The notes under the pieces are model-generated. The model was not told where the DNA came from. It made no database searches and saw nothing but the letters and a program-made list of their open reading frames with translations. A stretch of DNA of 64,000 nt, taken from a virus. The stretch is from IMG/VR virus record IMGVR_UViG_3300022723_000184, positions 1 through 64,000 of that record; one strand, 5' to 3'. Both the position numbers and the translations under genes were made by a program. Each line of letters opens with the position of its first letter. Position 1 is the stretch's first letter. Below, piece after piece: positions 33,809 through 53,604 of the stretch.

Positions 33809-36800
33809 GTGACGACCATCTCGAACAACCTGTTCGACCAGGACCCTGCCAACTCGATCCTCCCGGATCCGAGTTTTCCACAGCCCGTCCCCAAACCGGC
33901 TCCTCAGGAGGAAGAGCCGGAAATGCGGCGTTTTGGCGACCCGATTGCCACACGCCGCGCCATTTACGACAGGGTTTTCCAGGCGGCCCAGGAGATGGAG
34001 CCGGTCGTGGGCCAGACCCACACGCTGCGACTGTCCAACCTCAACTGGGCGGATCCCGAGGAATACTCCAAGCGGAAGCGGAAGGAAGCGATCCTCTCCG
34101 GCCAGACGCTTGGTCGCCGTCTTCGCGGGACCTGGGAGTTGGTCAACAACGAGACCGGTGAGGTCCAGGACCGCACGGACAAGACGGTCGCTCGCATCCC
34201 TTACGTGACGGGCAGCGGGACGTTCGTCCACCGGGGCAACGAGTACGCGATCAAGAACCAGCAGCGGCTGCGGGCCGGCGTGTTTACCCGGGTCAAGGAC
34301 AACGGGGAGGTCGAGGCCCACGCCAACATCCTCCGCGGCGGCCCGAGCCACCGGTACTTCCTGGACCCGGCCAAGGGTGTGTTCTACATGCGCCTCGGCC
34401 AGGCCAAGATCCCAATGATGCCCCTGCTCAAGGCGATGGGTGCGACCGACGCCCAGCTGCGTGAGGCTTGGGGCCCGGAGATCCACGCCGCCAACTACGG
34501 GGCCAACGACGCCAGCGCCCTGGTCAAGCTCAAGGAGAAGATCCTCAAGGACCGCTCGGCGAAGCAGGAGGAACTGGTCTCGGCCTTCAACCAGATGGAG
34601 CTGGACCCGGAGGTCACGCAGCGGACGCTGGGCCAGCCGTACGAGAACATGGGCCTCGACACGCTGCTCGACACGTCCAAGAAGCTGCTGGCGGTCAGCC
34701 GGCAGGAGGCAGACGTCGACGACCGCGACCACCTGGCCTACCAGACGTTCCTGGGTCCCGAGGATCTGCTCGCCGAGCGGATCCGCAAGGACCGGGGCGG
34801 CGTCCGCCGCAAGCTGCTGTGGAAGCTGGCCCGAGAGGGCAACCTGAGCAAGTTGCCGGCCGCCGTGCTCCAGGACCAGGTGGACAGCGCCCTGCTCGAA
34901 TCGGGCCTGGGTCAGGCCCTCGAAGAGATCAACCCGGCCGAGGTCTTCGACAAGCAGACCCAGATCAGCCGGATGGGTGAGGGCGGCATCCCGTCGCTGC
35001 AGGCGGTGCCCGACGAGGCCCGCGGCGTACAGCCCAGCCACATGGGCTTCATGGACCCGCTGCGCACCCCCGAGTGTTACGACGAGCAGACGGAGGTCAT
35101 GACGAAGCAGGGATGGAAACCGTGGCCTTCCGTTACCGAGAGTGATGAGTTCGCTTGTCTGGTGGACGGTCGTCTGGAGTTTCATCTCGCAGACAAACTG
35201 GTGTCGTACCGGTACGTCGGGCAGATGTGTGGCGCGAAGACAGCCTTGGTCGACTACCTGGTCACGCCGGACCACCGCATGTACGTTCGCCGCGGTTACG
35301 ATACACCTCACTGGCGGATCGAGACGGCGAACGAGACGCATGAGGCTCATGTTCGGATTTTGAAATGCGGCGGCCACTCGCCTTACGTCGGGATGGCGTT
35401 CGATCCCGGTCTACCTGTCTTTGAGTCGCGGTCGAACAACAGCAAGGCGATCGACCTGGCGACCACGGACCCGTGCGACTGGGCGGAGTTTGTCGGGTGG
35501 TACCTGTCGGAAGGCAACTTGGCTGTTTCCGAGTCTAGACAGTCTTATAAGGTCATGATCACTCAGAGCCCGGAAGCGAACCCGGAGAACCATACCCGGA
35601 TCCGGGACTTGTTGGATCGTCTACCGTTCGACTGGTCTTTCTGTAACCACGAGAAAGCATTTGTCGTGAGCCGCCGCCACCTTTATGAGTGGGCCAAACC
35701 GCTAGGAAAGTGTGACGACAAATTCATTCCCGCTCGTTGCTTCGATTGGCCCGAGGAAGCTCGTCGATCGTTGTTGGAGGGTCTGTTACTGGGCGACGGC
35801 CGTAAGGCAGTTAAAGGCGGCAGAGTGGGCCGGCCCACACAGTACTGTTCGACTAGCCGCAGGCTGGCTTATGACGTTCAGAGGCTGTTGTTCACCCTTG
35901 GTGTCTCGTCCCGGGTGGTATTCGAGCCGGACGAACGGGAGGATCACTATCTCGGATGCTGGGTCGTGCATATCCACGCGAGAACGCAGCGGCGAGTTGG
36001 TCGTGCTCATGCAGCTAAAGAAAGCGATTTCCACCTGGAGAGTTACGACGGTCATGTCTACTGCGCTTCTGTTCCTGGTGGGCTTTTGTACGTGCGTCGC
36101 AACGAGAGCTGCGGCATTTGGTGCGGCAACAGCTTCCGGGTCGGTGTCGACGTGCACCTGGCCCGCAATGCCCGCAAGGGGCGTGACGGCAAGCTCTACG
36201 CCCAGTTCCGTGACGCCCGGTCGGGCAAGGACGTGTGGCGCACGCCGCAGGACGTCGCCGACCTGGCCGTGGCGTTCCCCGGCTCCATGAAGTCGGAGGC
36301 CAGGCGGGTGCCGGCCATGAAGAACGGCCGGATCCGGTGGGTGCCCAAGGAGAAGGTTGACCTGGTGCTCAGCACCTTCGAGAACGCCTTCAGCCCGTTG
36401 GGCAACATGGTCCCGCTCAAGAGCATGGTGAAGGGCCAGCGGGTGGCGATGGCCAGCCGGATGAGCGTAACGGGTGACGCCTGGGTTGTAGTGCTGCGAA
36501 AATCTGGTGACGCCTATTACGGCCCGATACGAGATTACGTGTGGAGGAAAGGCGACAAGTCTCCGTCTATCGATAAGGTTACGCACCGGCTGGTGTGGAA
36601 ACCGGTGCGAGCTAAGCTAGTACACCGGAACACGAAACGTCTTATGCGGGTGACGGTTGATAGCGGTAGGAGCTTTGTTGCTACTGAGGATCACAGTTGC
36701 GTTACGCTAGGTAAATCTGGACGTCTTGAAAAGATTAAAACCGGTGATTTATCTAAAGGCCTACCCGTTCCTTATGCCGCGACGCTTGATTGCCCCGAGA

Positions 36801-39800
36801 CGTACCAGAAAACGTGGAATGTGCCGAACGGAAACAAGCACAACGCCCATCCGGGTGTCGCGTTTCCGTTAACACGGGATGTAGGCTGGTTTTTGGGGTT
36901 GTACGTTGCCGAGGGTTACGGGGTCGGCAAAGATGCTCGCGCTGTGGCGCTTGCTAACATCTCTCCCGAAGTGCAGACCAGGGTTTGCCGGTTTATGGCT
37001 GACATTGGTTTGTGCGTGAAGCCGTCTTCCGGCAGCGACGGGGTGAACGACCGGGTTGTTATCAACTGGCTGCAGTTATACAGAAAGTTGCGAGAGGATT
37101 TCGGGGACGGGGCTTATAACAAAAGGCTTCCCGCCTGGGTGCATTTTTCGCCGAAAGCGTTCCGGGAAGGTCTGTTGTCGGGATACATGGCTGGCGATGG
37201 GATCGTATCGAAACCAGTAGCCCGTTCAACAACAACCGGCGGCGGCAGCCGCAGCCTGGACCTGGTCAACGGGTTGACGCTTCTTTGTGCGTCACTCGGT
37301 ATTTCAACGTCTGTGTCCTCGCCCTGGGTTAATACCGGCCCGGGAGGATCCCGGGTGCAACAACACAAGTTCACGATACGTAAAGAGCACCAACATCTAC
37401 TCCCCGTGATCGGCCACCCGGAAAAAGACAAAAAAATGCAACGGTCGTCGTGGTCGGGCAAGCGGTCTTACGACTGGATACCGATTTTCGACGACCTTAG
37501 ACCTATGTTTAATCGGCGAACGCAGCGTCGCGACAACCGCCGCCGGCGGCTGGATAACCGTTATATGGGTCGCTTGGATCGCCGCGACGTAATCGACTTA
37601 TTTGGGGATGACGCGGAGTGGGCTACCAGGGGTTGGTCGTCGTCGTCTGTCTGGTGGGATCGGGTGAAGCGGGTGGACGAAGTCAGTTCGGACCATGAAT
37701 TCGTTTATGACCTTGACATGGAAGACAACGTGTTCCTGGCCAACGGCGTGTTTGTGCACAATACAACGCAGGCCCTGCCCGTGGCTAACCCCGAGGCGCC
37801 ACTCGTCCAGTCGGCGGTTCCCGGCAGCGGCGGGGCAATCAGCTTCGAGGACGAGTACGGATCGCACATGGGTGCGGTGCGTGCCGATCAGCCCGGTCGC
37901 GTGGTGGCGGTCACCGACGACGAGATCACCGTGCAGTACGCCGACAACAGCCGGGCGAACATCGAGCTGTACAACAACCATCCGTACAACCGTAAGAGCG
38001 TGACCGGTGACACCGAGATTCTGATCCGCAGAAGGGCGGAATCTGGGCGGTCGAGGCAAGGGCTTTACATCTGGCGAGGCCCGATTCGCGAGTATCAGTG
38101 GCGAGACGACGACTACGTCCTTTCGGTGTGTCCGAAAACGAAGCAGTCTGCGTGGAAGAAGGTCATCGCGAAAACGGCTCATCCCAACGACAAACGTCTG
38201 TTGCGGGTGAAGACAGCGTCCGGCCGTCATGTTGTGGTGACCGAAGACCACAGCCTGGTGACGATGGGTAGCGATGGAACACTCGTGCCTATCTATCCGG
38301 ACGATTGCCAGGTCGGCAAGACACGGTTGCCTGTGGCTAAGATCCCCGAAATGGTCTCGTCGAAGACGTATCCGGGCAAGTCTCGTAACGACGGTCGCGT
38401 GGTCGGCCTATACCTTGCGGAAGGGCACTGCCCGCCCAGTCAGCCAAACCTGGTGACGATTTCGGTTGAGCCGGACGATCGGGCAGAGACGGTACTGGCT
38501 TTGTTGAGAACCGTTTCGGAGGGCTACGAGCCGTTCCGAAACGGCGGTACCGTTTGTATGACGGCGCCGAAACTGGTCAAGAGGTTGGTGAAACAGTTCG
38601 GACACCGGTCACACAACAAGAAGATCCCGTCGCGATTCCTTCGGTACCCAGCCGAGTTCCGAGAAGGACTGGTCGAAGGGTACATGGGTGGCGACGGTTG
38701 CTTTTGGAAGGACGGAAACGGCGGGACTAATTTGGAGGCGACCAGTGTTTCGCGGGAGCTTCGGGACAACCTCGTCGACCTGCTGCTGTCGTTGGACGTG
38801 TTCACGACGCTGAAGACGTCGCCAAGGAAAAAGTACAAGGATGCGTGGCGGGACGGGTATCGCTTCCGCGTCTTGTCCGGGGAGCTACACAAGCTGCCCC
38901 GATGGTTCGTGTACGACGATCGAGAGGAACGGTTGAACGAATCCATCGATTCGCAGTACCGAGCTTCCGTGTACGAGATGGTTCCGGTCCCCGATAAAGA
39001 AGCCAGGACGCTCGTCTATGCCGGCTTCGACAAGACGCCGCTGCAAGGAAAAGTTGCCAAGCACAGGCTGGCCGGATCCAAAAGCGTGTTCGGCAAGTGG
39101 GGTGTCTCTGACGTCATGTGGGATGAGATCGTGGCGATCGAATCGGCGGACCACGAAGAGGAGGTCTACGACCTTTCCGTGCAAGACTCGGAGATGTTCG
39201 CTGTTTGTCACGGCCTGGTCGTACACAACACATACATCCATCAGACGCCGACGGTCCGGCCTGGCCAGTCCTTCAAGGCCGGAGACCTGCTTGCCCGGTC
39301 GAACTACACCAACGACCAGGGCGCGACGGCCCTGGGCGTCAACGCCCGCGTTGCTTACGTGCCGTGGGGCGGCAAGAACTTTGAAGACGCCATCGTGATC
39401 TCGGACTCCATGGCCAAGCGGTTGAGTTCCGAGCACATGTACCAGCACGACCTTGAGATCAGCGCCCGGACCCGCACTGGCAAGAACACCTACCTCTCGC
39501 TGTTCCCCGGCAAGTACGACAAGAAGACCCTGGAAAACATGGACGCTGACGGCGTCGTCAAACCAGGCACAGTCGTGCAACACGGGGATCCGCTAATCCT
39601 GGCTGCCGAAGAGCGGAGCCGGGCGCTGAACAAGGTTCACAAGAAGCGTCAGCCTGGCTTCCAAGACAACAGCATCACGTGGAAGCATCACGACGAAGGC
39701 GTGGTGACCGATGTGGTGAAGACCAAGAACGGCCCGGTCGTCTTGGTCAAGGGCCGGCAGGAGATGAAGGTCGGCGACAAGATGTGTTACGACCCGGAGA

Positions 39801-40831
39801 CTAGCCTACTCACGCGGCAAGGTTGGAAGCCTGTTGCGGAGGTTACGCTCGACGACGAGTTGGCGACGCTGAACCCGGAAACGGAAGAACTGGAGTACCA
39901 CAAACCAACTCACGTGCACTCGTTTGCTCACACGGGGGAGATGTACTACCTGAATACCAAGCACCTCAACATGCTGGTGACGCCGGAGCATCGCTTGTGG
40001 GTTGCTCGTCCGGGCCAGACCTACGGCGAGGTGACGGCTAAAGACTTCTACGAGTCGAAGGGCGAATGGCAGTTCAAGAAAGACTGCAAGTGGGTTGGCG
40101 AAGAACGCTTGTTGATGGAGTTCGAGCCGTACATCGCGAGGAACAGTCGAGAGCAAGTCCTGGAATCTGTACCCATGGACATTTGGCTCAGGTTCATCGG
40201 GTATTACCTGTCAGAGGGTCGAACTTGTCGTACTTCGAGCGGCGGGTATCAGGTGCAGATCAGCCAGTTCCGAACGTCTTCGGTTTGGGAGGACATTCAC
40301 GACACGCTGGTCGAGCTTGGTCTGCGTTTCTCGTACCGAGAAAACGAAAATAGGTTTGAGATCAACTCCAAGTGGTTGTACGGGGTGTTGCTGCCGTTGG
40401 GCAGCGATGCGTACTCGAAGCGAGTGCCGGAATACGTACAAGAACTGTGCTCTCGCCAGATCTCCGTCTTGTTCGATTCTTACATGGAAGGAGACGGACA
40501 TAAGGGGGCGTGCTGGGAGTTTGGAACGTCGAGCGAGCAGTTGGCTTTCGACCTTCAAGTGTTGTGTTTGAAGTTGGGCTGGTGTGTCAAGTTGAAGCCC
40601 GTCGACCGTGAAGACAACCTTCAAAAGAACCCTCACTGGCGGGGCCGAGTTAATCGTTCTCATCTGCGGCCTTGGTGGAAGAAAGGGCAGGCAAAGACCT
40701 ACGCGTCCAACGAAGAGAAGATGGTGCAGTACGACGGCGAGGTCTACTGCGTGACAGTTCCCAATCACATCGTTTATTGCAAGAGGGAGGACAAAACGTA
40801 CTGGTCGCTGAACAGCGGCCGGTACGGCTAG
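33809..40831 (+). CDS. RNA polymerase beta subunit, N-terminal and central part, with four inteins
   Basis: 2340 aa, of which about 800 are extein. GTG start with AAGGGG upstream. Beta landmarks in order: PSHMGFMDPLRTPE|SFRVGVD (equivalent of the HYGRxCPIETPEG motif), TTQALPVANPEAPLV (QAVP region), TYIHQTPTV, PWGGKNFEDAIVIS (the conserved MPWxGxNFEDAI) and EMKVGDKM|SGRYG (GDKMxGRHGNKG). Inteins occupy residues 423-774, 886-1318, 1397-1807 and 1993-2335. The frame stops at TAG 40829, five codons after intein 4, exactly where beta should read on into DKGVV. That sequence follows in another frame after a 5-nt insertion. The encoded beta is thus truncated at a catalytic-core motif unless rejoined. 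Confidence 0.93.
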   Translation: MTTISNNLFDQDPANSILPDPSFPQPVPKPAPQEEEPEMRRFGDPIATRRAIYDRVFQAAQEMEPVVGQTHTLRLSNLNWADPEEYSKRKRKEAILSGQTLGRRLRGTWELVNNETGEVQDRTDKTVARIPYVTGSGTFVHRGNEYAIKNQQRLRAGVFTRVKDNGEVEAHANILRGGPSHRYFLDPAKGVFYMRLGQAKIPMMPLLKAMGATDAQLREAWGPEIHAANYGANDASALVKLKEKILKDRSAKQEELVSAFNQMELDPEVTQRTLGQPYENMGLDTLLDTSKKLLAVSRQEADVDDRDHLAYQTFLGPEDLLAERIRKDRGGVRRKLLWKLAREGNLSKLPAAVLQDQVDSALLESGLGQALEEINPAEVFDKQTQISRMGEGGIPSLQAVPDEARGVQPSHMGFMDPLRTPECYDEQTEVMTKQGWKPWPSVTESDEFACLVDGRLEFHLADKLVSYRYVGQMCGAKTALVDYLVTPDHRMYVRRGYDTPHWRIETANETHEAHVRILKCGGHSPYVGMAFDPGLPVFESRSNNSKAIDLATTDPCDWAEFVGWYLSEGNLAVSESRQSYKVMITQSPEANPENHTRIRDLLDRLPFDWSFCNHEKAFVVSRRHLYEWAKPLGKCDDKFIPARCFDWPEEARRSLLEGLLLGDGRKAVKGGRVGRPTQYCSTSRRLAYDVQRLLFTLGVSSRVVFEPDEREDHYLGCWVVHIHARTQRRVGRAHAAKESDFHLESYDGHVYCASVPGGLLYVRRNESCGIWCGNSFRVGVDVHLARNARKGRDGKLYAQFRDARSGKDVWRTPQDVADLAVAFPGSMKSEARRVPAMKNGRIRWVPKEKVDLVLSTFENAFSPLGNMVPLKSMVKGQRVAMASRMSVTGDAWVVVLRKSGDAYYGPIRDYVWRKGDKSPSIDKVTHRLVWKPVRAKLVHRNTKRLMRVTVDSGRSFVATEDHSCVTLGKSGRLEKIKTGDLSKGLPVPYAATLDCPETYQKTWNVPNGNKHNAHPGVAFPLTRDVGWFLGLYVAEGYGVGKDARAVALANISPEVQTRVCRFMADIGLCVKPSSGSDGVNDRVVINWLQLYRKLREDFGDGAYNKRLPAWVHFSPKAFREGLLSGYMAGDGIVSKPVARSTTTGGGSRSLDLVNGLTLLCASLGISTSVSSPWVNTGPGGSRVQQHKFTIRKEHQHLLPVIGHPEKDKKMQRSSWSGKRSYDWIPIFDDLRPMFNRRTQRRDNRRRRLDNRYMGRLDRRDVIDLFGDDAEWATRGWSSSSVWWDRVKRVDEVSSDHEFVYDLDMEDNVFLANGVFVHNTTQALPVANPEAPLVQSAVPGSGGAISFEDEYGSHMGAVRADQPGRVVAVTDDEITVQYADNSRANIELYNNHPYNRKSVTGDTEILIRRRAESGRSRQGLYIWRGPIREYQWRDDDYVLSVCPKTKQSAWKKVIAKTAHPNDKRLLRVKTASGRHVVVTEDHSLVTMGSDGTLVPIYPDDCQVGKTRLPVAKIPEMVSSKTYPGKSRNDGRVVGLYLAEGHCPPSQPNLVTISVEPDDRAETVLALLRTVSEGYEPFRNGGTVCMTAPKLVKRLVKQFGHRSHNKKIPSRFLRYPAEFREGLVEGYMGGDGCFWKDGNGGTNLEATSVSRELRDNLVDLLLSLDVFTTLKTSPRKKYKDAWRDGYRFRVLSGELHKLPRWFVYDDREERLNESIDSQYRASVYEMVPVPDKEARTLVYAGFDKTPLQGKVAKHRLAGSKSVFGKWGVSDVMWDEIVAIESADHEEEVYDLSVQDSEMFAVCHGLVVHNTYIHQTPTVRPGQSFKAGDLLARSNYTNDQGATALGVNARVAYVPWGGKNFEDAIVISDSMAKRLSSEHMYQHDLEISARTRTGKNTYLSLFPGKYDKKTLENMDADGVVKPGTVVQHGDPLILAAEERSRALNKVHKKRQPGFQDNSITWKHHDEGVVTDVVKTKNGPVVLVKGRQEMKVGDKMCYDPETSLLTRQGWKPVAEVTLDDELATLNPETEELEYHKPTHVHSFAHTGEMYYLNTKHLNMLVTPEHRLWVARPGQTYGEVTAKDFYESKGEWQFKKDCKWVGEERLLMEFEPYIARNSREQVLESVPMDIWLRFIGYYLSEGRTCRTSSGGYQVQISQFRTSSVWEDIHDTLVELGLRFSYRENENRFEINSKWLYGVLLPLGSDAYSKRVPEYVQELCSRQISVLFDSYMEGDGHKGACWEFGTSSEQLAFDLQVLCLKLGWCVKLKPVDREDNLQKNPHWRGRVNRSHLRPWWKKGQAKTYASNEEKMVQYDGEVYCVTVPNHIVYCKREDKTYWSLNSGRYG
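35075..36130 (+). mobile_element. Intein 1 (beta, TPE|S site)
   Basis: 352 codons. N-terminal block CYDEQTEVMTKQGW (Cys1) and C-terminal ...IWCGN followed by Ser+1. LAGLIDADG-type motifs FVGWYLSEGN and LLEGLLLGDG mark a homing endonuclease. The penultimate residue is Gly, not His. Related to inteins 4, 5 and 6. Confidence 0.9.
36464..37762 (+). mobile_element. Intein 2 (beta, RM|TTQALP site)
   Basis: 433 codons, the longest here. Begins SVTGDAWVVVLRKSG (Ser1), ends NGVFVHN before Thr+1. Block B ATEDHS; LAGLIDADG-type motifs FLGLYVAEGYG and LLSGYMAGDG. Its codons are visibly richer in A and T than the flanking extein, a sign of later arrival. Confidence 0.9.
37997..39229 (+). mobile_element. 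Intein 3 (beta, YNRK|TYIHQTP site)
   Basis: 411 codons. Begins SVTGDTEILIRRR (Ser1), ends HGLVVHN before Thr+1. Block B VTEDHS; endonuclease motifs VVGLYLAEG and LVEGYMGGDG. Sister of intein 2. Confidence 0.9.
39785..40813 (+). mobile_element. Intein 4 (beta, VGDKM|SGRYG site)
   Basis: 343 codons. Begins CYDPETSLLTRQGW, ends KTYWSLN before Ser+1; penultimate Leu. Endonuclease motifs FIGYYLSEGR and LFDSYMEGDG. The beta frame is broken 16 nt downstream of its end. Confidence 0.88.
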
Positions 40832-43800
40832 GTGATAAAGGAGTTGTTGCCGCGATCATCCCCGACAACCAGATGCCCCACGACAAAGCGGGCAGCCCGT
40901 ACGAGGTGCTGCTCAACCCCCTTGGGGTCATCAGCCGCTGTTACGACGAGCAGACTGAGTTCTTGACGGATCGAGGCTGGGTGTTTGGTCGTGACGTTCA
41001 TCAAGACGACCAGTTCGTTTGCTACCACGTCTGGACCGAGAACCTGTACACAATGCCACAGTTGGAGAAGTTTCACGTTGCGGACTACACAGGCAAAATG
41101 CTGAAGTTTGAGAACAAGCTCATGGACTTCTGCGTCACGCCGAATCACCGCATGTGGGCTGCTTGTGGATACCCCGGCGCGCCATGGCAGGAAGTGACGG
41201 CCGAGCGAATTTTCGACCGAAACGGGTGGAAGGTGCCTGTGGCCGGAAACCCGGTACCCGGTGAAGATCGGGACTTCGTGTTGCCGCAGATCGAGCGCCA
41301 CGTGAAGGATACGCAGTCGTCTGTAGAAGAAATTGTGATTGAAGCCGGGGACTGGGCCGAGTTCCTTGGTTGGTACGTGGCCGAAGGTAACGCCGACGAG
41401 AAAGTCCACATCTCTCAGAGTATCGAGGCTAATCCGGAAAACTGTAGCCGGATCGAGGAGCTGTTGAATCGCCTTCCGTTCGCCTGGAACTACAACGCGA
41501 AGAACACGCAGTTCCACATCACATCGAAGCGTCTTTGTGAGCACCTGAAACCGTTGGGGCTGTGTGATGAGAAGCACGTCCCGGACTGGGTCTTCTCGCA
41601 GAGCCCAGAGACACGGCAGCGGTTCCTAGATAGCTATCTGGCCGGTGACGGCGACAAAGATCAGACGAACAGAGACCATGCGTATTGGGGCGCCGGTACA
41701 ACGTCAAAACAGTTGGCGCAGGACCTCCAGCGACTGCTTATCTACCAAGGCTATTCGGCGAATACGTCGAAGCAGCCTTCGGGTATGTGGCGGGTCGGTA
41801 TTCACGCTAAACGGCACCGAATCTTGGAGAAACAGAACTGGGCCGAAGTTGACTACGACGGTAAGATCTATTGCCCGACGGTGCCAACCGGGTACATCGT
41901 GACTCGCCGCAACGGAAAGGTTTTGATCGCGGGCAACACCAACCCGGCCCAGATGGTGGAGGCCGCGTTGGGCAAGCTCGCCAAGCACCGCGGCCAGCCG
42001 ATCAAGGTCGAGGACTTCGACGAGAACATCGAGGACATGACTGAGTGGGCCAGGGATCAGCTGCGTAAGGCGGGGCTCTCGGACACCGAGGACATTGTCG
42101 ACCCTAGCACCGACAAGAAGATCAAGGGGATCAACACCGGCAACCGCTTCTTCATGAAGCTGCACCACACGGCGGAATGTTTTGACGATCAAACCGAGGT
42201 ACTTACAAAGCGAGGGTGGGTCTCGTGGGTTGATGCGCGAGACGATGATGAGTTCGCGACGCTTGATGGCGGCGACCTTGTTTATGAGCAGGCCGAGCGG
42301 GTAGTTCGCAGCGAGTACTACGGGCAATTGTGTTGTTTTGAGGGCAGATACCTTGACTATGCCGTTACCCCGAATCACCGACTCTGGTTGAAATCTTATA
42401 ACTGGCAAAAGGAGTGGGGGTTTCGCGAGGCCGGTGAGGTTCATGGGCGGCGGTTCTCTGTGCAACAATTCGGTCCCTCGGCGGCAGGTAACAATCCCGC
42501 AACCACTAAGATCGGCGATGACGACGTGGATTGGGATGATTACGCGGAGCTTGTTGGGTGGTGGGTCACTGAGGGGTACGCCAAGGTTACGCGTCGCCGG
42601 GCCTGCGTGATGATCTATCAAAGTGAATCCGCGAACCCGGAAAAACTTGCTAGGATTGAGGAGCTTGTGGCTCGTTTGCCGTGGCCCTGGCATTATTACA
42701 AAGTAAAAGGCGAGATTTTCGGTGTTGGCATTAGTAGTAGGGCACTTGCTGAGCATTTGAAGCAGTACGGAACACATTCACACAATAAGCGCTTACCGCG
42801 GCATCTCCTTGAGGGAGGATTGACCGGGCGACAGCGACTATTCGCGTCGATGATGGATGGCGACGGCAATCGGCAGACCACGCCGACTGGAAACATGGAA
42901 AGATTCACGACGACCTCTAAGGGGTTGGCAGATGATTTTCAGGAGTTGTGTGTTCGATCCGGATTCGGTGCGGTTATCCGCCCGGTTAAGCCGAGGAAAG
43001 AGACGCATTATTTGCCTGCGTGGACTTGCGGCGTCGCGTTGTCGCGAACAACCGCCCAGATCGACGGTGACCGCAATCTGGGCGGGTTCTCCCTTCGCAT
43101 GTACAAAGGCGTTGTTTATTGCGCAACGATGCGAACGGGGATGCTATATGTTCGGCGTAACGGTAAGCCGATGTGGAGCGGTAACTCCAAAGGACAGGGA
43201 CGTGGATCCGGAGGTTATACGGCTGAGGATGCACCGGCGAAGGGCGGCGAGACGGGCAGCAAGAGAATTGCGCTGCTCGATGTTAACGCCCTCCTCTCCC
43301 ACGGCGCTACAGAGGTTCTTCGGGATGCTTCTGCGATTCGCGGGCAGAAAAACGAAGACTACTGGCTGCAGTTCATGCAGGGCTACACACCTAAGCAGCC
43401 GAAGGTCCCGCTCGTCTACGAGAAGTTCGTCAACGAGCTGAAGGGCGCCGGGATCAACGTGGTGCGTGACGGGACGCAGACCAACATCATGGCGCTGACC
43501 GATGACGACATCGATCAGCTGGCCGGCGACCGCACGATCAAGTCGGGCGAGACCGTCCACTTCGACAAGGACCTCAAGCCGATCCCGGGCGGCCTGTTCG
43601 ACCCGGCGGTGACCGGCGGTCACCACGGTCGGCGGTGGGCCGCGATCAAGCTGGCCGAGCCCATGCCCAACCCGGTGATGGAAGAGCCGATCCGTCGAGT
43701 GCTCGGGCTGACTGGCAAGAAGTTCCAGGACATTATCGCGGGCAAGGACACGCTGCCCCGTTACGGCACCGGGCTGCGGGCGATTTCCGAGGCACTCGAA

Positions 43801-44877
43801 AACATCAACCTCGACCGCGAGATCCTGAGGACGCAGGGCGAGATCAAGAACGGGACGAAGGCGGCACGCGACGCCGCCGTGCGAAGGCTCGGCTACCTGA
43901 AGAGCGCCAAGCGGCTCAACATCCACCCGCGACAGTGGATGCTCAAGAAGGCCCCGGTCCTGCCTCCGCAGTTCCGCCCGGTCAGCGTGATGACCGACAA
44001 AGAGATCCCGCTCGTCGCCGATCCCAACTTCCTCTACAAGGAGTTGATCGAGGCGAACAACAACCTCATCGACATGAAAGGTGCGGTCGGCGATGAAGTG
44101 GGTGACGAGCGGCTGGCGGTCTACAACGCGTTCAAGGCGGTGACAGGGCTCGGCGACCCGATCACGCAGGAGTCGAAAGAGAAGAACGTCCGCGGCATCC
44201 TCAAGAGCGTGTTCGGCTCCAGCCCGAAGTTCGGCACCGCGCAGCGGAAGCTCATCGGGACGACGGTCGATAACGTGGGGCGTGCGGTGATCACGCCGAA
44301 CCCCTCGCTCGACATGGACAGCGTCGGCCTGCCCGAGGACCGGGCGTTCGAGGTGTACAAGCGGTTCCTGGTCCGCCGGCTCAAGCGGAAGGGGATGCCT
44401 GTGGCCCAGGCCATGCGGCACGTCAACGAGAAGTCGAGCTTGGCCCGAGACGTCTTGATTGAGGAGATGGAGCAGCGGCCGGTGATCATCAACCGGGCGC
44501 CCGTCCTCCACCGGTTCGGGATCATGGCCTTCAAGCCTCGCCTGGTGAAGGGCAGCACCCTGCAGGTGAGCCCGCTGGTCGTGAAGGGGTTCAACGCTGA
44601 CTTCGACGGCGACGCCATGAACTACCACGTGCCGACGGACGAGGAGGCCCGCAAAGAGGCTCTCGACCGGATGCTCCCCAGCCGCCAGTTGCTGAGCCCG
44701 TCCGACTTTAAGTCGCCGGTCCACGCTCCGAGCCAGGAGTACGTCGGCGGTCTGTACCACGCCACCGCAAGCAAGAGCGAGCGGCCGGTTCGGACGTTCG
44801 CCAGCCAGAAGGACGCGATCGCCGCGTACAGGCGAGGCGAGATCAGCATCGACGACCAGGTGCAGATCATCGGGTAG
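40831..44877 (+). CDS. RNA polymerase beta C-terminus fused to beta' N-terminal half, with two inteins
   Basis: The homologous frame resumes at GGT 40831 and is open upstream to 40672, but no good start is visible: an AAAGGAG at 40837 has no in-frame ATG/GTG/TTG behind it until ATG 40873. About 680 extein residues. Beta part: DKGVVAAIIPDNQMP, LNPLGVISR, TGSKRIALLDVNALLSHGA. Beta' part: GGLFDPAVTGG, RWAAIKLAEPM, PPQFRP, VIINRAPVLHRFGIMAF, and the catalytic NADFDGDAM whose three Asp bind Mg. It ends at RRGEISIDDQVQIIG, just before the beta' TVGR segment that begins the 46858 gene. No beta' zinc-finger cysteines are seen. Confidence 0.92.
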   Translation, partial: GDKGVVAAIIPDNQMPHDKAGSPYEVLLNPLGVISRCYDEQTEFLTDRGWVFGRDVHQDDQFVCYHVWTENLYTMPQLEKFHVADYTGKMLKFENKLMDFCVTPNHRMWAACGYPGAPWQEVTAERIFDRNGWKVPVAGNPVPGEDRDFVLPQIERHVKDTQSSVEEIVIEAGDWAEFLGWYVAEGNADEKVHISQSIEANPENCSRIEELLNRLPFAWNYNAKNTQFHITSKRLCEHLKPLGLCDEKHVPDWVFSQSPETRQRFLDSYLAGDGDKDQTNRDHAYWGAGTTSKQLAQDLQRLLIYQGYSANTSKQPSGMWRVGIHAKRHRILEKQNWAEVDYDGKIYCPTVPTGYIVTRRNGKVLIAGNTNPAQMVEAALGKLAKHRGQPIKVEDFDENIEDMTEWARDQLRKAGLSDTEDIVDPSTDKKIKGINTGNRFFMKLHHTAECFDDQTEVLTKRGWVSWVDARDDDEFATLDGGDLVYEQAERVVRSEYYGQLCCFEGRYLDYAVTPNHRLWLKSYNWQKEWGFREAGEVHGRRFSVQQFGPSAAGNNPATTKIGDDDVDWDDYAELVGWWVTEGYAKVTRRRACVMIYQSESANPEKLARIEELVARLPWPWHYYKVKGEIFGVGISSRALAEHLKQYGTHSHNKRLPRHLLEGGLTGRQRLFASMMDGDGNRQTTPTGNMERFTTTSKGLADDFQELCVRSGFGAVIRPVKPRKETHYLPAWTCGVALSRTTAQIDGDRNLGGFSLRMYKGVVYCATMRTGMLYVRRNGKPMWSGNSKGQGRGSGGYTAEDAPAKGGETGSKRIALLDVNALLSHGATEVLRDASAIRGQKNEDYWLQFMQGYTPKQPKVPLVYEKFVNELKGAGINVVRDGTQTNIMALTDDDIDQLAGDRTIKSGETVHFDKDLKPIPGGLFDPAVTGGHHGRRWAAIKLAEPMPNPVMEEPIRRVLGLTGKKFQDIIAGKDTLPRYGTGLRAISEALENINLDREILRTQGEIKNGTKAARDAAVRRLGYLKSAKRLNIHPRQWMLKKAPVLPPQFRPVSVMTDKEIPLVADPNFLYKELIEANNNLIDMKGAVGDEVGDERLAVYNAFKAVTGLGDPITQESKEKNVRGILKSVFGSSPKFGTAQRKLIGTTVDNVGRAVITPNPSLDMDSVGLPEDRAFEVYKRFLVRRLKRKGMPVAQAMRHVNEKSSLARDVLIEEMEQRPVIINRAPVLHRFGIMAFKPRLVKGSTLQVSPLVVKGFNADFDGDAMNYHVPTDEEARKEALDRMLPSRQLLSPSDFKSPVHAPSQEYVGGLYHATASKSERPVRTFASQKDAIAAYRRGEISIDDQVQIIG
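40939..41937 (+). mobile_element. Intein 5 (beta C-terminal region, GVISR|T site)
   Basis: 333 codons. CYDEQTEFLTDRGW start, KVLIAGN end before Thr+1. Endonuclease motifs FLGWYVAEGN and FLDSYLAGDG. Shares EANPEN and RIEELLNRLP with inteins 1 and 6, so these are paralogous insertions. Confidence 0.9.
42178..43185 (+). mobile_element. Intein 6 (beta C-terminal region, HHTAE|SKGQG site)
   Basis: 336 codons. CFDDQTEVLTKRGW start, KPMWSGN end before Ser+1. Endonuclease motifs LVGWWVTEGY and LFASMMDGDG. Codons richer in A/T than the extein. Confidence 0.9.
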
Positions 44878-46857: not shown

Positions 46858-49800
46858 ATGAAGGCGACGGTCGGTCAACTTCTGGTGAACGACGCACTCC
46901 CGGAGGACATGCGGGACTACCAAATGGTCCTCGACAAAAAGGGTGTGCGGAATCTCATGGCCGACCTGGCCCGTAAGCACCCGGAGGATTACCGGGAGGT
47001 CAGCCACAAGCTCTCACAGATCGGTTGGCGTTCGGCCCAGGAATCCGGCGGCTACAGCTTCGGCTTGGAGCACATGCTCAAAAGCAAGACCGGCCGAGAG
47101 ACCCGCCAACGCATCCAGAAAAAGATCAACGAGATCCTCGCCGACGACCGGCTCACCGACGAGCAGCGTGAGCAGCTGATCCTCAAGCACATCGGCAAGG
47201 AACGCGAGGCCATGCAGTCGGGGATCTTCGACGAGGCCCGCGCCGCGAAGAACCCGCTGGCCATGCAGGTGTTGGGCTCGGGCCGCGGCAACCCGATGAA
47301 CCTGTCGAGCCTGTTGGGCTCGGACCTGCTGTACACCGACCAGCGTGACCGGCTGATTCCGATCCCCGTGCTCCGCAGTTACAGCGAGGGCCTGAGCCCC
47401 GCCGAGTACTGGGCCGGGACCTACGGCGCCCGCAAGGGCGTGATGTGTTTGGCTAAAGGAACTCAGGTGCTGATGGCCGATTACACGGACAAGCCGATCG
47501 AGAAGGTGAAACCTGGTGACTGGGTGATGGGATCTGATCGTCAAGGGCGGATGACGCCTGTGAGGGTTATCCGTCGTTACTACAACGGTGTGCAGCCTTG
47601 CTACCGCTACCGATTTCGCAAAAATAGTTGCCGTTTGCCGTCCTCGCATCGAACACTCGTGGCGACCGAAAAGCATAAGGTCCTTGCCACCGTAAAAGCC
47701 GGACGACCCGGTTCAACCTATGCACACCGGTCAATCTACGTCCCGACACCATTACCGCTTGAAGCGGCGCGTCTGCTTAAAAATCCAGTAAAGAATGAAT
47801 ACGTGGCGACGCCGGCGGCCGGGGAGGCGGGCGAGCAGTCCCGAGTGCGAGAACCGTCGGCCTTGTTGTATGGGTTGATGCTCGGCGACGGGTGTATGGC
47901 AGAATCGACCCGTGGGCGGTATTTGTTGTCGTGCAATGACCCGCTCCTTTTGGACGACCTGCGTGAGTACATCTCATTGTTCGACGTGTTTTTGGACAAA
48001 GCAGGCGGTGATAATTACAACTATACGCTGGCGGGCGATGGGGGGGCTGCGGTTGCGGTCGATTTGAAGACGCGTCTCGGCGAGAAATTGGCCCACGATA
48101 AGGAGCTTCCAGAGGGTTGTTTCGCATGGGACGATGTTTCGGTTGGTCAGTTGCTCGGAGGATTGTTTTCCACCGACGGCTCGATTACTGGCCGAAACGG
48201 TAACGCAACAATTAAGTTGACACTTTCTTCCCGGCGTATGGTGGAACAAGTGCAACGACTGTTGGAACTCCGGTTGGGTATATGGTCCGGCGGGCTGATC
48301 TTCACAGCTAAAGAAAAGAAGAAGAACGCAACGCACGACCAATGGGGTTTTGCGGTGTCACACGCTGCGTCGGTTGCCAGGTTTTTCGCGCGGGTCCCCT
48401 TGTACGGCAAGAAGAGGGTTCAGGCGAAGCGTATCGCGGCTACCATGAAACCGGACCACTCAAACGGGTCACCGGGGTTTAAGATCTACGATCGAGAACC
48501 GGCTGGCGAAATTGCTACATATGATTTGGAGGTTGATCACCCAGACCACCTGTTTGTGCTTTCTAGCGGCCTGGTCGTGTCCAACAGCACGAAGTTCGCC
48601 ACCCAGGAGGCGGGCTTCCTCTCTAAGCAGCTCAACCAGATGGGCCACCGCCTGGTGGTCACAGATGAGGACGGGGACGGCGAGCCCGATTCGCTCCGCG
48701 GCCTGCCGGTGGATGTCGACGACCCGGACTCCGCGGGAAGCCTGCTGGCCCACGACGCCGGCGGCTACAAGCGGAATACGGTGATCACGCCCAAGATCCT
48801 GCACAACCTTCGCCGCCAAGGTCTCAAGCGGATACTGGTCCGCAGCCCCACGGTCGGTGGTAGCCCTGAGGGTGGTATCTACAGCCGTGACGCCGGCGTC
48901 CGCGAGAAGGGCGGGCTCCCGGGTCGCGGCGAGAACATCGGCCTGGCCGCTGCCCAGGCGTTGTGTTTGTCTGGAGGGACGAGAGTCCAGATGGCCAACG
49001 GAGAGGTCAAAGCGGTGGAGGACGTTAAGCCCGGAGATGTAGTTCTGGGATGCAGTGTCGACGGGGTGTTGCGGCCTGTTCCTGTGCTTGACGCTTGTTT
49101 CAGCGGCATTAAATCGTGTGTGAAGGCCCTGTTCAGGCGGGGCACGGGTAAGGCCGCCAAAGACAATCTGCTAGAGCTGGTCGCGACTCCAGAGCACAAA
49201 ATACTCTCCGAGATTGTTGTTCGTTCGGGTAGGGGTTCGGTAAAACGTGTTCCTTACTTCGATCCGGTTGCCGTTCGCCCGCTCGGAACCAAAATCCCAC
49301 ATGAAAAGCGATCAGGGGGCGATCGGTTCTGCGCTAAACTGGCGTCGTCCTTTGACGATACCGGGCTTGGTGTTCAACCTTTAGCTTTTCTTTTGGGTCT
49401 GGTAATCGGTGATGGTTGCTATAGCGGATCAGCGAACTGCGTAGGGTTCAGCTGTTATGATCCGGTGCTCGCCGCTGACGTCGGTGCGTATCTCAAGCCG
49501 TTGAACTTCGAGATCAAAAACAACACGGATAACGAGTACCGCGTTGTCGATACAACGCACCGCCAAGTGAAGCGACGCGAAGATGGTAGCTGGTATCGCA
49601 GCCGTCTTATTGAGCTGCTTCGTGTCGAGGGAATGTTCGGGCAGACGAGCAGTATTAAGACTTTGCCGAAGTCCGTGCACTCGTGGGATAACGCGTCTGT
49701 GGCTGCGCTGATCGCCGGTCTGCTCGTAACGGACGGGTACGTGATATCGACGGGCGGTTTGGGGTTCGGATCGAACTCTAAGTGCTTGCTGGATGGCGTT

Positions 49801-52800
49801 CGGCAGCTTCTAGGGTTGCGGTGGGGCGTCTGGGGTTCGTCGGTTATATCTTCCACGAAGAAGCGTGCTGATGGTGATGAGTACGCCCCTAACTGGCGGT
49901 TTACGGTTAATCGCAGAGACGATGTTAATCTTCTTCGTTCTATTCTTCCTGTCGCTGGCGTGAAACGTGGTCGGCTAGACTCGCTGTTATCGAAGTGGAA
50001 CTCGAAACGGCGTTCGGCAAGAGGCGCGCCTAGAGTCAAGGGTCGGTGTACTCGTATTTCATTGGAACGGGTCGGCGAGTTGCCGACATACGACCTGTAC
50101 ATCGCACACCCTGATCACCTTTTCGTGTTGGCCAACGGACTGGTTGTTTCCAACTCCGAGCCCCTGAGTCAGGCTCAGCTTTGCCTTGCAGCAGGGACTC
50201 TAGTGCGGATGGCCGACTGGACGGTGAAACGGATCGAGCAGGTCCGGGCTGACGAACAAATCATGGGAGCCGACAAATCCGGGCGGCTGTTTCCGGTGCG
50301 CGTTGTCCGGGTCTACGACAACGGAGAGCGGGAGTGTGTTCGGACGGTATTCCGGGAAGCCAAAACGAAGCAACACGTCGATCTGGTCAGCACCGGAGAC
50401 CACAAACTCTTGTCCAAGACAAGGCATTGGGCGATACCGTCCGAGCGAGTGGAACACGGCGTGTTTCCGGTCGCCCGGAAATGTGTTGGCTACTCGGCCA
50501 AGATGCCGTTCGCGGTCGTAAACGATCACGGCTGTGCAGAACCGTTTGCCGGCCTGTGCGGTCTGCTGCTGGGTGATGGAGGGTATACTGTCAGCGTTCA
50601 CGGGGTTCACTGGTCTTGTTTCGAGCCGGACCTGGTGGAAGAGATGCAGCCTTACCTGGCAGGACTGGGTTTGAAGGCTACGAAGCTCCAAGGGCACGAA
50701 GGGCACGAAGGCTATTACCGAATCAGCCAGGTCGAAGACGCGATTCGGCAAGACCCGGAGACCGGACGAGTGCTGCCCGGAGACCGTAATCCGGCACTGA
50801 TCTGGTTGAAGCAGCACCGGATGTACGGCAAGTACGCACACGAGAAAGAGATTCCCGAGGAGATTTGGAGTTGGGACCAAAACTCGGTTGCACGATTGCT
50901 GGGCTGCCTGTTTGCGACAGACGGTAGCGTTTATCCGCCGACGCAGCGACCCGATGAACTCTATATCAACTTCAGCTCAACTTCTTTGGAGCTTGCGAAG
51001 CAGGTCAAGGAACTAATTCAGGTCCGCTTTGCGATTCATAGCTCGTCGATCGGAAGCCACAAGGGAAAACGCAAGCGGAAGCTTTATTCGTTCACGATCA
51101 CCCGCAAAGAACAGGTCAGACGGTTCGCGTCTCGGATCGCGGTTCCGGCGCGTAAAGGACAGATGCTGGCCGACTATCTGCCAAAACTCCAGGAAGACGA
51201 GTCCACCGAGTATTTCCATCGCCAGCGGCAGGAACCCGTGGGCACGGTTGCGACATACGATCTCGAAGTCGACCATCCGGACCATCTTTTCGTGCTGGCC
51301 AACGGTCTGATTGTTTCTAACTCGGCCAAGCACTCGGGCGGCGTGGCCGGCAGCGAGAAGGCGGTCTCCGGGTTCGACTACATCAACCAGCTGATCCAGG
51401 TGCCCAAGAAGTTCAAGGGTGGTGCGGCCCATGCCCAGGTCGACGGCATCGTGAGCCGGATCGAAGAGGCTCCGGCCGGTGGCAAGTACGTCGTGATCAA
51501 TAACGAGAAGCACTACGTCGGTCCGGACTTCTCGTTGAAGGTTAAGCGAGGCGACGAGATTGAGGCGGGCGACGTCCTGAGCGAGGGCATCCCGAACCCG
51601 TCGGAGGTCGTGCGCCACAAGGGCGTTGGCGAAGGTCGGCGGTACTTCACCCAGGCCTTCCGCCAGGCGATGCATGAAGCTGGGATACACGCCAGCCGCC
51701 GCAACGTGGAACTGTTGGGTCGGGGCCTGATCGACCATGTGCGGATGACGGATGAGTACGATCAGTACGTCCCGGACGATGTGGTACCCTACAGTGCACT
51801 GGAGCACCGGTGGCAACCCCGGGAAGGGAGCCGCCGGGTCCCGTACAAGCAGGCGGTTGGCAAGTACCTGGAGCGTCCGGTCCTCCACTACACGATCGGC
51901 ACGAAGATCCGGAAATCGATGCTCAAGGACTTCGAGGACTTCGGGGTCGAGGAGCTGGAGACCCATGACGAGCCGCCGCCGTTCGAGCCCGAGATGATCC
52001 GGGGCATGTACTCGGTCCAACACGATCCCGACTGGATGACCAGGATGTACGGCTCAGGCCAGAAGAAGAGCTTGCTGAGTGCCGTGCACCGTGGCGGGAC
52101 CAGTGACGAGCTGGGCACCTCGTTCGTCCCGGGCCTGGCCCGTGGCGTCGACTTCGGCCGGCAGGGCCTGGTCACGCCGCCCGCCCCACCCCAGAAGATG
52201 GGCAGCGACATGCAGAAGGAAGCGGAGGGCATGTGGGGAACCGGGGCCATCCCGGGCTCACCCAACTTCAACCTGCAGCAGCAGGCCCGCCAGTCGTACA
52301 ACGTCGGCAACAGCATGCTCAGCAGTATGCGTGGCGGCGGTGGCGTGGGTCCGGCAACGGCCGGCGACGCCAACCGGTTCCGACAGTACCTCTCGTCTTT
52401 CGCCGCTGCCCCCGGCCCCACCGGGGCACCTGCCGGTCAGGCTGCTGCGTCCGTGGCCCGCCCGGCGGCTGCTACGGCCGGCAGTGCCGCGACCGGCAAC
52501 GGCCTGACCACCGCCGACTGGCACGCGTGGAGTGCTGGACCGATGGGGGCGGGCGCCGCGACCAAGGCCGGGACCCGTCCGCTGGCCGCTGCTGCCCTGC
52601 GGTACGCACCGGCCGTGGCCAAGGCCCCGGGCATCCGCAACCTGGTGGGCGCTATGGCCCGGCCCTCGGCCGCCGCCCAGGCGTTGAGCGGGGTGAAGCC
52701 GCAGATGCCGGGCACCGTCTCGAAGTGGCTGCGGCCCGGCTACCACCAGTACGCGACCAAGGTCCTGGGTCAGTCCCACAACCTGGCTCAGGGTGCCGGC

Positions 52801-53604
52801 AAGTTCGGGCGGTTCGCGGGCAAGGCTGGGCGACTCGCTGGTCCGTTGGGCCTGGCGGTCGCCCCGCTGGAGTTCGGGATCCGTGGCGGCAGCGAGCTTT
52901 ACGACATGGCCACGGGTCAGGACACCTTCGGGAACATGGTCGACCAGCGGCTGCGGGACGCTGGCAACTGGCAGGGGCCGACGGGTTATGCGGGCGCCGT
53001 GCTCAACACACCGTTCAGTCCGTCGAGCGTGGCGGCCTTGGGCAAAGCCAAATACGACCTGGCGATGGCCCCCATCCAATCGTTTGCCCAACGACGCCAA
53101 TCGCTGGCCGCGGGCAACCGGCTCAACGAGCAGCTGGCCGAGAACCGCGAGGCGGCGGGTGGCGTCGACGAGCTGCTGCAGCACGCTCCGAAGGACATCG
53201 CCAGCCGGTACGCCCGGAAATACGTGGACGACACGCCCTGGTACGGTCTGGGCGGGTTCAATCCGTTCGTGAACGATCAGGGCCGCATGACGTGGGTCGA
53301 CAAGGGGACCGGCGAGGAAGCTGGTTCCGGGGCCATGCAGGCGATCGAGCAGGTCAAACAGCAGAACCAAGATCGTGAAGCGGCACAGGAGGCCGCGAGG
53401 TACGCGAGGCAAAAACCGCAGCAGGCCGCGGTGGTCCAGGCGAAACCGGCTGCTCCGGCACCCGCTCAAGAGGCCCGTGCGGCGTCGCTCCTCGGCAACC
53501 CGATCTACCGACAAGTGCTCAGCCAGGTCAGCGCCCAGAGCCCGGAAATGGGAGCGATGCTCCTGCTGTCAGGTGCCGATCCGTCTCATCTTATGGGCCG
53601 ATGA
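46858..53604 (+). CDS. RNA polymerase beta' C-terminal half with three inteins and a virion-like extension
   Basis: 2248 aa, about 1090 extein. CGGAGG precedes the ATG. Beta' landmarks: MKATVGQLLVNDALPE (TTVGR region), SYSEGLSPAEYWAGTYGARKGVM|STKFATQEAGFLSKQL (bridge-helix/trigger-loop motif FREGL..YF...HGARKGL.DTALKTA), GENIGLAAAQAL|SEPLSQAQL|SAKHSGG (GExVGxIAAQSxGEPxTQxTxxTFH), and FRQAMHEAGIHASRRNVELLGRGL (C-terminal Rpb1_5). Inteins occupy residues 197-576, 703-1099 and 1109-1488. From about residue 1785 a 460-aa Ala/Gly-rich tail resembles the structural proteins nearby, so the enzyme may be packaged. The last codons (SHLMGR) are encoded by repeat copy 4. Confidence 0.93.
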   Translation: MKATVGQLLVNDALPEDMRDYQMVLDKKGVRNLMADLARKHPEDYREVSHKLSQIGWRSAQESGGYSFGLEHMLKSKTGRETRQRIQKKINEILADDRLTDEQREQLILKHIGKEREAMQSGIFDEARAAKNPLAMQVLGSGRGNPMNLSSLLGSDLLYTDQRDRLIPIPVLRSYSEGLSPAEYWAGTYGARKGVMCLAKGTQVLMADYTDKPIEKVKPGDWVMGSDRQGRMTPVRVIRRYYNGVQPCYRYRFRKNSCRLPSSHRTLVATEKHKVLATVKAGRPGSTYAHRSIYVPTPLPLEAARLLKNPVKNEYVATPAAGEAGEQSRVREPSALLYGLMLGDGCMAESTRGRYLLSCNDPLLLDDLREYISLFDVFLDKAGGDNYNYTLAGDGGAAVAVDLKTRLGEKLAHDKELPEGCFAWDDVSVGQLLGGLFSTDGSITGRNGNATIKLTLSSRRMVEQVQRLLELRLGIWSGGLIFTAKEKKKNATHDQWGFAVSHAASVARFFARVPLYGKKRVQAKRIAATMKPDHSNGSPGFKIYDREPAGEIATYDLEVDHPDHLFVLSSGLVVSNSTKFATQEAGFLSKQLNQMGHRLVVTDEDGDGEPDSLRGLPVDVDDPDSAGSLLAHDAGGYKRNTVITPKILHNLRRQGLKRILVRSPTVGGSPEGGIYSRDAGVREKGGLPGRGENIGLAAAQALCLSGGTRVQMANGEVKAVEDVKPGDVVLGCSVDGVLRPVPVLDACFSGIKSCVKALFRRGTGKAAKDNLLELVATPEHKILSEIVVRSGRGSVKRVPYFDPVAVRPLGTKIPHEKRSGGDRFCAKLASSFDDTGLGVQPLAFLLGLVIGDGCYSGSANCVGFSCYDPVLAADVGAYLKPLNFEIKNNTDNEYRVVDTTHRQVKRREDGSWYRSRLIELLRVEGMFGQTSSIKTLPKSVHSWDNASVAALIAGLLVTDGYVISTGGLGFGSNSKCLLDGVRQLLGLRWGVWGSSVISSTKKRADGDEYAPNWRFTVNRRDDVNLLRSILPVAGVKRGRLDSLLSKWNSKRRSARGAPRVKGRCTRISLERVGELPTYDLYIAHPDHLFVLANGLVVSNSEPLSQAQLCLAAGTLVRMADWTVKRIEQVRADEQIMGADKSGRLFPVRVVRVYDNGERECVRTVFREAKTKQHVDLVSTGDHKLLSKTRHWAIPSERVEHGVFPVARKCVGYSAKMPFAVVNDHGCAEPFAGLCGLLLGDGGYTVSVHGVHWSCFEPDLVEEMQPYLAGLGLKATKLQGHEGHEGYYRISQVEDAIRQDPETGRVLPGDRNPALIWLKQHRMYGKYAHEKEIPEEIWSWDQNSVARLLGCLFATDGSVYPPTQRPDELYINFSSTSLELAKQVKELIQVRFAIHSSSIGSHKGKRKRKLYSFTITRKEQVRRFASRIAVPARKGQMLADYLPKLQEDESTEYFHRQRQEPVGTVATYDLEVDHPDHLFVLANGLIVSNSAKHSGGVAGSEKAVSGFDYINQLIQVPKKFKGGAAHAQVDGIVSRIEEAPAGGKYVVINNEKHYVGPDFSLKVKRGDEIEAGDVLSEGIPNPSEVVRHKGVGEGRRYFTQAFRQAMHEAGIHASRRNVELLGRGLIDHVRMTDEYDQYVPDDVVPYSALEHRWQPREGSRRVPYKQAVGKYLERPVLHYTIGTKIRKSMLKDFEDFGVEELETHDEPPPFEPEMIRGMYSVQHDPDWMTRMYGSGQKKSLLSAVHRGGTSDELGTSFVPGLARGVDFGRQGLVTPPAPPQKMGSDMQKEAEGMWGTGAIPGSPNFNLQQQARQSYNVGNSMLSSMRGGGGVGPATAGDANRFRQYLSSFAAAPGPTGAPAGQAAASVARPAAATAGSAATGNGLTTADWHAWSAGPMGAGAATKAGTRPLAAAALRYAPAVAKAPGIRNLVGAMARPSAAAQALSGVKPQMPGTVSKWLRPGYHQYATKVLGQSHNLAQGAGKFGRFAGKAGRLAGPLGLAVAPLEFGIRGGSELYDMATGQDTFGNMVDQRLRDAGNWQGPTGYAGAVLNTPFSPSSVAALGKAKYDLAMAPIQSFAQRRQSLAAGNRLNEQLAENREAAGGVDELLQHAPKDIASRYARKYVDDTPWYGLGGFNPFVNDQGRMTWVDKGTGEEAGSGAMQAIEQVKQQNQDREAAQEAARYARQKPQQAAVVQAKPAAPAPAQEARAASLLGNPIYRQVLSQVSAQSPEMGAMLLLSGADPSHLMGR
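47446..48585 (+). mobile_element. Intein 7 (beta', ARKGVM|STKFA trigger-loop site)
   Basis: 380 codons. CLAKGTQVLMADYTDK start, DHPDHLFVLSSGLVVSN end before Ser+1; penultimate Ser. Endonuclease motifs LYGLMLGDG and LLGGLFSTDG. Closely related to inteins 8 and 9. Confidence 0.92.
48964..50154 (+). mobile_element. Intein 8 (beta', AAQAL|SEPLSQ site)
   Basis: 397 codons. CLSGGTRVQMANGEVK start, HPDHLFVLANGLVVSN end before Ser+1. Endonuclease motifs LLGLVIGDG and LIAGLLVTDG. Confidence 0.92.
50182..51321 (+). mobile_element. Intein 9 (beta', SQAQL|SAKHSGG site)
   Basis: 380 codons. CLAAGTLVRMADWTVK start, HPDHLFVLANGLIVSN end before Ser+1. Endonuclease motifs LCGLLLGDG and LLGCLFATDG. Only nine extein codons (50155-50181) separate it from intein 8. 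Confidence 0.92.

Follow-up and report, generated by a model that had tools for sequence, protein, structure and literature searches.

A conserved, intein-linked recoding site in a phage RNA polymerase gene, most likely a short programmed translational bypass

Known bypass systems and the polymerase site

Efficient programmed bypassing is documented in essentially one well-studied phage case, gene 60 of T4, whose gap has been reported in T4 alone and is missing from T4-related phages (PMC3014915). In this gene, the ribosome hops from one GGA codon to another over a UAG located directly 3′ of the take-off codon, helped by a 5′ stem-loop acting as a motor and by an SD-like sequence (PMC5009743, PMC11194080, PMC3014915). 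The 5′ stem-loop re-zips and pulls the mRNA (PMC5009743, PMC11194080), and a protective role against a homing endonuclease has been proposed for the gap (PMC5009743). The synthetic stop-hops obtained in E. coli (Weiss et al. 1987, cited in PMC5009743) were, in that review's account, constructs with matched codons around a stop and short hops, and no natural in-frame stop-hop was then known according to the same 2016 review (PMC5009743). In Magnusiomyces capitatus mitochondria, short non-coding inserts are skipped and imperfect matches between take-off and landing codons are tolerated, while a bypass linked to a UUA codon has been proposed for the terminase of Streptomyces phage Hau3 (PMC5009743).

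The site described here, located in a phage RNA polymerase (RNAP) gene, is judged from its sequence to be a conserved, intein-linked recoding site, most likely a short programmed bypass, sharing the logic of T4 gene 60 with different parts. As in gene 60, a Gly codon proposed for take-off is directly followed by a stop (GGA UAG in T4; GGY UAG, UGA or UAA here, in all five sequences), the landing codon encodes Gly (in three of five sequences), the downstream ORF may lie in any frame, an SD-like sequence is present and a homing endonuclease is a neighbor (mobA in T4, a LAGLIDADG intein here). Unlike gene 60, the gap measures 5-9 nt instead of 50 nt, the conserved 12-bp hairpin that corresponds to the 5′ stem-loop is nearer to the take-off codon, which it abuts and whose first base it takes in, and the site is intein-linked, resides in RNA polymerase and recurs in five divergent sequences. 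A KKYK-type motif, expected about 25-30 aa from the P site and the only type of nascent-peptide signal sought, was absent by inspection from the last 35 residues, and neither a take-off stem-loop in the A site nor any other conserved structure containing the stop was predicted. As both elements were looked for and not found, the site is not classed as a gene-60-type member.

The resemblance to the synthetic E. coli stop-hops lies in the matched codons flanking the stop and in the shortness of the hop, but the in-frame hops of two of our sequences (L026 and L022) would be natural ones, equipped with a dedicated hairpin. In contrast with the bypass elements of M. capitatus, which are context-independent and occupy 81 places, each phage here has just one such site, marked by an RNA structure that is conserved. 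The Hau3 terminase is likewise a phage gene with suspected bypassing, but shows no link to a stop, a hairpin or an intein. In the literature searched, which lay mostly outside subscription journals, we found no report of an intein-linked bypass. Recoding would here be coupled to a mobile intein that resides in a core enzyme, in a compact module of about 60 nt whose natural variation in stop, gap length and landing codon across five divergent phage sequences offers a ready series for studying what a hop needs.

The break and its recurrence among related phages

The window, i.e. the whole stretch of 64,000 nt analysed, corresponds to bases 1-64000 of a 201,946-bp IMG/VR virus record. The RNAP gene of this window comprises the following features:

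33809-40831, + strand: ORF1, beta subunit with inteins 1-4, ending in SGRYG-TAG; RNA_pol_Rpb2_6 up to profile position 228
39785-40813, + strand: intein 4, 343 aa, N-terminal Cys and C-terminal Asn, inserted at GDKM^SGRYG
40814-40828, + strand: extein codons S-G-R-Y-G, 3′ of intein 4
40826-40828, + strand: GGC (Gly), proposed as take-off codon; each of the five sequences has GGC or GGT here
40829-40831, + strand: stop TAG, immediately 3′ of the take-off codon; TAG, TGA or TAA in relatives
40829-40833, + strand: gap TAGGT, 5 nt, proposed to be bypassed
40831-40833, + strand: proposed landing codon GGT (Gly), sharing the last base of the stop
40834-44877, + strand: ORF2, from GAT AAA (DKGVV); rest of beta fused to N-terminal beta′ (RNA_pol_Rpb1_2), with inteins 5 and 6

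Frame A of RNAP beta reads DKTYWSLN|SGRYG and then TAG at 40829-40831, as a preliminary description of this one contig had reported. The continuation DKGVVAAIIPDNQMP begins at 40834 in a different frame, which remains open for 1347 codons and runs into the remaining beta and the N-terminal part of beta′. The insertion of 5 nt that the description had proposed, placed there as CTAGG, was recovered in the equivalent placement TAGGT (40829-40833), which represents exactly the bases in excess of intein-less relatives. A protein that is continuous in relatives is hence encoded by two disjoint ORFs and a non-coding gap, of 5-9 nt across the family. The break also falls, as described, within the conserved GDKM-x-GR-x-G-x-KG motif: in an ungapped phmmer alignment, the lysine of GDK corresponds to K1065 of E. 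coli beta and that of DKG to K1073, and the break is located between the two. We take K1065 and K1073 to be active-centre lysines.

Regarding the gene layout, one ORF joins beta in frame to N-terminal beta′ (Rpb2_6 + Rpb1_2, 40834-44877), while C-terminal beta′ is encoded separately some 2 kb further downstream (46858-53604), in an ORF that carries a long extension rich in Ala and Gly. Between 33809 and 53604, the RNAP genes contain about nine inteins, of which the gene for beta and N-terminal beta′ accounts for six and the ORF for C-terminal beta′ for three. By eye, all of those other than intein 4 are in frame.

The use of intein 4 as a query retrieved four contigs, and a degenerate pattern (YWSxN-SGRYG-stop) two more. 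The intein family is therefore present in seven contigs including the window, representing five distinct sequences with intein identities of 56-66% and the intein at the same site in all. The comparison with sister contigs, suggested in the preliminary description, showed that the six additional contigs, which represent four distinct sequences, have the same break; the stop codon and the length vary, but the stop always lies exactly 3′ of SGRYG:

Window: GGC-TAGGT-GAT, gap of 5 nt
L026: GGC-TGAGGT-GAT, gap of 6 nt, in contigs with three different metagenome numbers
L027: GGT-TGAAGGC-GAT, gap of 7 nt
L023: GGC-TAACGAT-GAT, gap of 7 nt
L022: GGT-TAACTAAGC-GAT, gap of 9 nt

The metagenomic origin of the contig (IMG/VR) could point to a sequencing or assembly error, one of the options raised previously. 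This option is excluded by recurrence, since five distinct sequences have their stop at one position but differ in the bases there, and since the identical 6-nt version occurs in three contigs with the metagenome numbers 3300029911, 3300029913 and 3300030020 in their names. The break is genuine, and it is a reminder that a gene with inteins may look interrupted in a viral assembly though it is intact.

Neither an alignment-based search nor two looser patterns detected further members or a member without the stop; the pattern devoid of the stop gave four extra matches, none of them in the frame of a polymerase or of an intein. The exact 25-mer of the window site had no second copy in viral_contigs, and neither the module nor the intein family at the RpoB site was found in the isolate phage and GTDB genome collections. 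A distant Lak-phage intein, located in another gene, lacks the stop. A covariance-model search of the window contig and the related loci recovered the module once in each, the other matches being antisense or due to chance. As controls, 80 further phage beta loci were analysed. The intact motif was matched in 76 of them, and L106 is intact by eye (SGRMGDKG), giving 77 intein-less loci, all intact. The remaining three were two known module carriers (L041 and L050) and L080, where the same position is occupied by a different intein.

Gaps of 5, 6, 7, 7 and 9 nt cover all three frames and are preceded by three different stops. Readthrough could serve the in-frame versions L026 and L022, and a -1 slip (GGC UAG to CUA GGU) could serve the window. 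But where readthrough calls for one stop and context with the same downstream frame, three stops and three net frames coexist at one conserved module, so that no single mechanism of this kind serves all five sequences, and the slippery heptamer of ordinary frameshifting is absent. Stop readthrough or +1/-1 frameshifting at the GGY-stop is thus very unlikely. Given the three stops and the need to shift into each of the three frames, one mechanism would suffice for all members only if the skip did not depend on frame. No tRNA gene able to suppress a stop was detected in the 202-kb contig. Transcriptional slippage was rejected, as there is no homopolymer run.

A hairpin ahead of the stop and the proposed hop

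In addition to the recurrence and the matched Gly codons, two elements located upstream of the stop extend the preliminary description:

40786-40790, + strand: SD-like GGAGG, 6 nt (ACAAAA) upstream of the hairpin
40797-40826, + strand: 12-bp hairpin CGUACUGGUCGC-UGAACA-GCGGCCGGUACG, 5′ arm in the intein and 3′ arm in the extein

The SD-like stretch reads GGAGG in four sequences and GAGG in the fifth, and is separated from the stem by an A-rich spacer ending with ACAAAA in all five. Each of the five sequences forms a perfect 12-bp stem with a six-base loop, the last pair of which involves the first G of the Gly take-off codon; the window and L027 can also form 13 bp with a four-base loop. Folding energies of the module range from -20.9 to -23.7 kcal/mol, with z values from -5.3 to -5.5 for the three sequences tested. 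The L080 junction folds weakly (-7 kcal/mol), and the eight other intein ends of the window range from -7.5 to -17.8 kcal/mol. When codons were sampled according to the usage of the gene while the peptide was kept constant, about 1.6% of draws per sequence contained a perfect 12-bp stem. One compensatory pair was identified (G-C to A-U in L022 and L023), the other stem pairs being invariant, and the covariation score was equalled in 51 of 500 shuffles. Conservation also extends to synonymous positions: over the last 13 intein codons, 7 of the 11 codons for residues common to all five sequences are invariant, versus 9 of 112 over the remainder of the intein (Fisher 4e-5). All Arg codons of the purine-rich SD-like stretch belong to the AGR class, which is in the minority in other parts of these inteins.

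Rfam yielded nothing relevant, the one sub-threshold hammerhead match being on the opposite strand. An intrinsic terminator was considered and rejected, given the lack of a U tract. A weak stem (GGUGAU with AUCAUC) can form just past the landing site (40831-40860 of the window) and is partly kept in relatives; it may possibly represent a 3′ stem-loop like that of T4 gene 60.

The DNA sequence, with a stable hairpin ending at the gap, is also compatible with removal of the gap from the mRNA before translation, by a mini-intron, editing, or cleavage and ligation. However, the gaps, of 5-9 nt, share no boundary sequence except the stop, and we know of no phage process that removes such short gaps from mRNA, which makes this explanation highly improbable.

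Analysis of the first 13 codons past the gap gave pS values of 0.32-1.09 and pN values of 0.10-0.32, with ratios of 0.13-0.53. These codons are under purifying selection, which argues against a dead gene; a defect of either kind, error or decay, has a negligible probability. From the last stop to DKG, no in-frame ATG, GTG or TTG is present in L022, L026 and L027, and the first in-frame ATG lies 13 residues further, where initiation would lose the K1073-equivalent lysine. The conserved residues and the lack of a canonical start together imply that DKGVV is reached either by ribosomes already translating or through an unprecedented start.

This result bears on the possibility of a gene in pieces, in which an N-terminal beta fragment would end at the stop and a separately translated C-terminal fragment would assemble with it, as for the split NrdA of phage Aeh1. 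Working split phage enzymes do exist beside homing endonucleases (PMC2988022), a variable gap length and frame would also be tolerable, and the SD-like stretch and hairpin could serve re-initiation. Yet DKGVV, with its K1073-equivalent lysine, is under purifying selection in a family of which three members have no start before it, although a start codon would easily have evolved if needed. We therefore consider separate translation unlikely. Among the options of the preliminary description (split, recoding or error), recoding is strongly favored, a plain split being disfavored by the missing start codons.

From the stop, the gap, the hairpin and their conservation, which are observed, we infer a hop, what drives it and how efficient it is. 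Our preferred reading, with a probability of roughly 0.8, is accordingly a stop-hop: a programmed translational bypass over a short range, associated with a single intein family. The ribosome would translate intein 4 and SGRYG, then pause with the stop in the A site while peptidyl-tRNA-Gly occupies GGC in the P site. The 12-bp hairpin, melted by the ribosome on its way, would re-zip behind it, perhaps with the aid of the SD-like stretch located 6 nt upstream, and would draw the mRNA out backwards, breaking the codon-anticodon pairing. The ribosome would thereby be shifted 5-9 nt forward, beyond the stop, and tRNA-Gly would re-pair just before GAU AAA. Translation would resume with DKGVV and proceed to the remainder of beta and beta′, and the later splicing of intein 4 would restore GDKM-SGRYG-DKGVV. 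If base pairing can reach to within nine bases of the P site, 8 bp could re-form during a 5-nt hop and the full 12 bp during a 9-nt hop (-13 to -21 kcal/mol). Such a geometry, in which the hairpin is nearer to the P site than the 5′ stem-loop of T4, would agree with the spread of gap lengths.

The codon preceding GAT is GGT in the window and L026 and GGC in L027, a full match to tRNA-Gly(GCC) in three of five sequences; a GGY codon is expected by chance with a frequency of 1/32 each, and three of five at about 3e-4. After leaving GGC or GGU, tRNA-Gly(GCC) would thus re-pair fully in these three phages. The codons of L022 (AGC) and L023 (GAT) each carry one mismatch, which counts against the bypass, and landing there would depend on two-of-three pairing. 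Minimal pairing can reportedly be enough for coding resumption (Herr et al. 2004, listed in PMC3014915).

Intein 4 and its insertion site

Intein 4 displays the hallmarks of a LAGLIDADG intein: Cys1, a C-terminal Asn followed by Ser, Thr or Cys, two motifs with acidic residues (GYYLSEG and DSYMEGDG) and in-frame extein junctions, the 3′ extein being in frame only as far as SGRYG. Intein and extein trees conflict, each data set rejecting the best topology of the other (AU p 0.004 and 0.021, with five taxa only), which is what a mobile intein would be expected to produce.

The L080 intein (GDKL^CYSPDTE...GN^SGRYG) shares the insertion point GDK[LM]^SGRYG in a related phage polymerase, but it is a different intein with the C-terminus GKPVWCGN, and its junction reads directly into DKG with neither stop nor hairpin. 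The RpoB GDK[LM]^SGRYG site has thus probably been invaded at least twice, by the intein 4 family and by this unrelated intein.

We tentatively put forward, as a speculation that we hold to be somewhat doubtful, that intein, hairpin and stop constitute one selfish cassette making the intein hard to lose, an addiction through recoding. On this cassette reading, the gap would be tolerable only thanks to the SD-like stretch and the 5′ hairpin arm, supplied by the intein, with which ribosomes skip it, and a clean loss of the intein would leave the RNAP cut between its active-site lysines. Against a bypass carried as a co-mobile cassette, the gap sequences pair as in the extein tree (window with L026, L022 with L023), which is unexpected if the cassette were strictly co-mobile.

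L022 and L023 share TAAC after the Gly codon and, unlike the other three sequences, have no GGY landing codon. Intein 5 (NPLGVISR^CYD, 40955-41937 of the window) is also present at the same site in the L026 lineage (L026/L050), and not in L022, L023 or L027.
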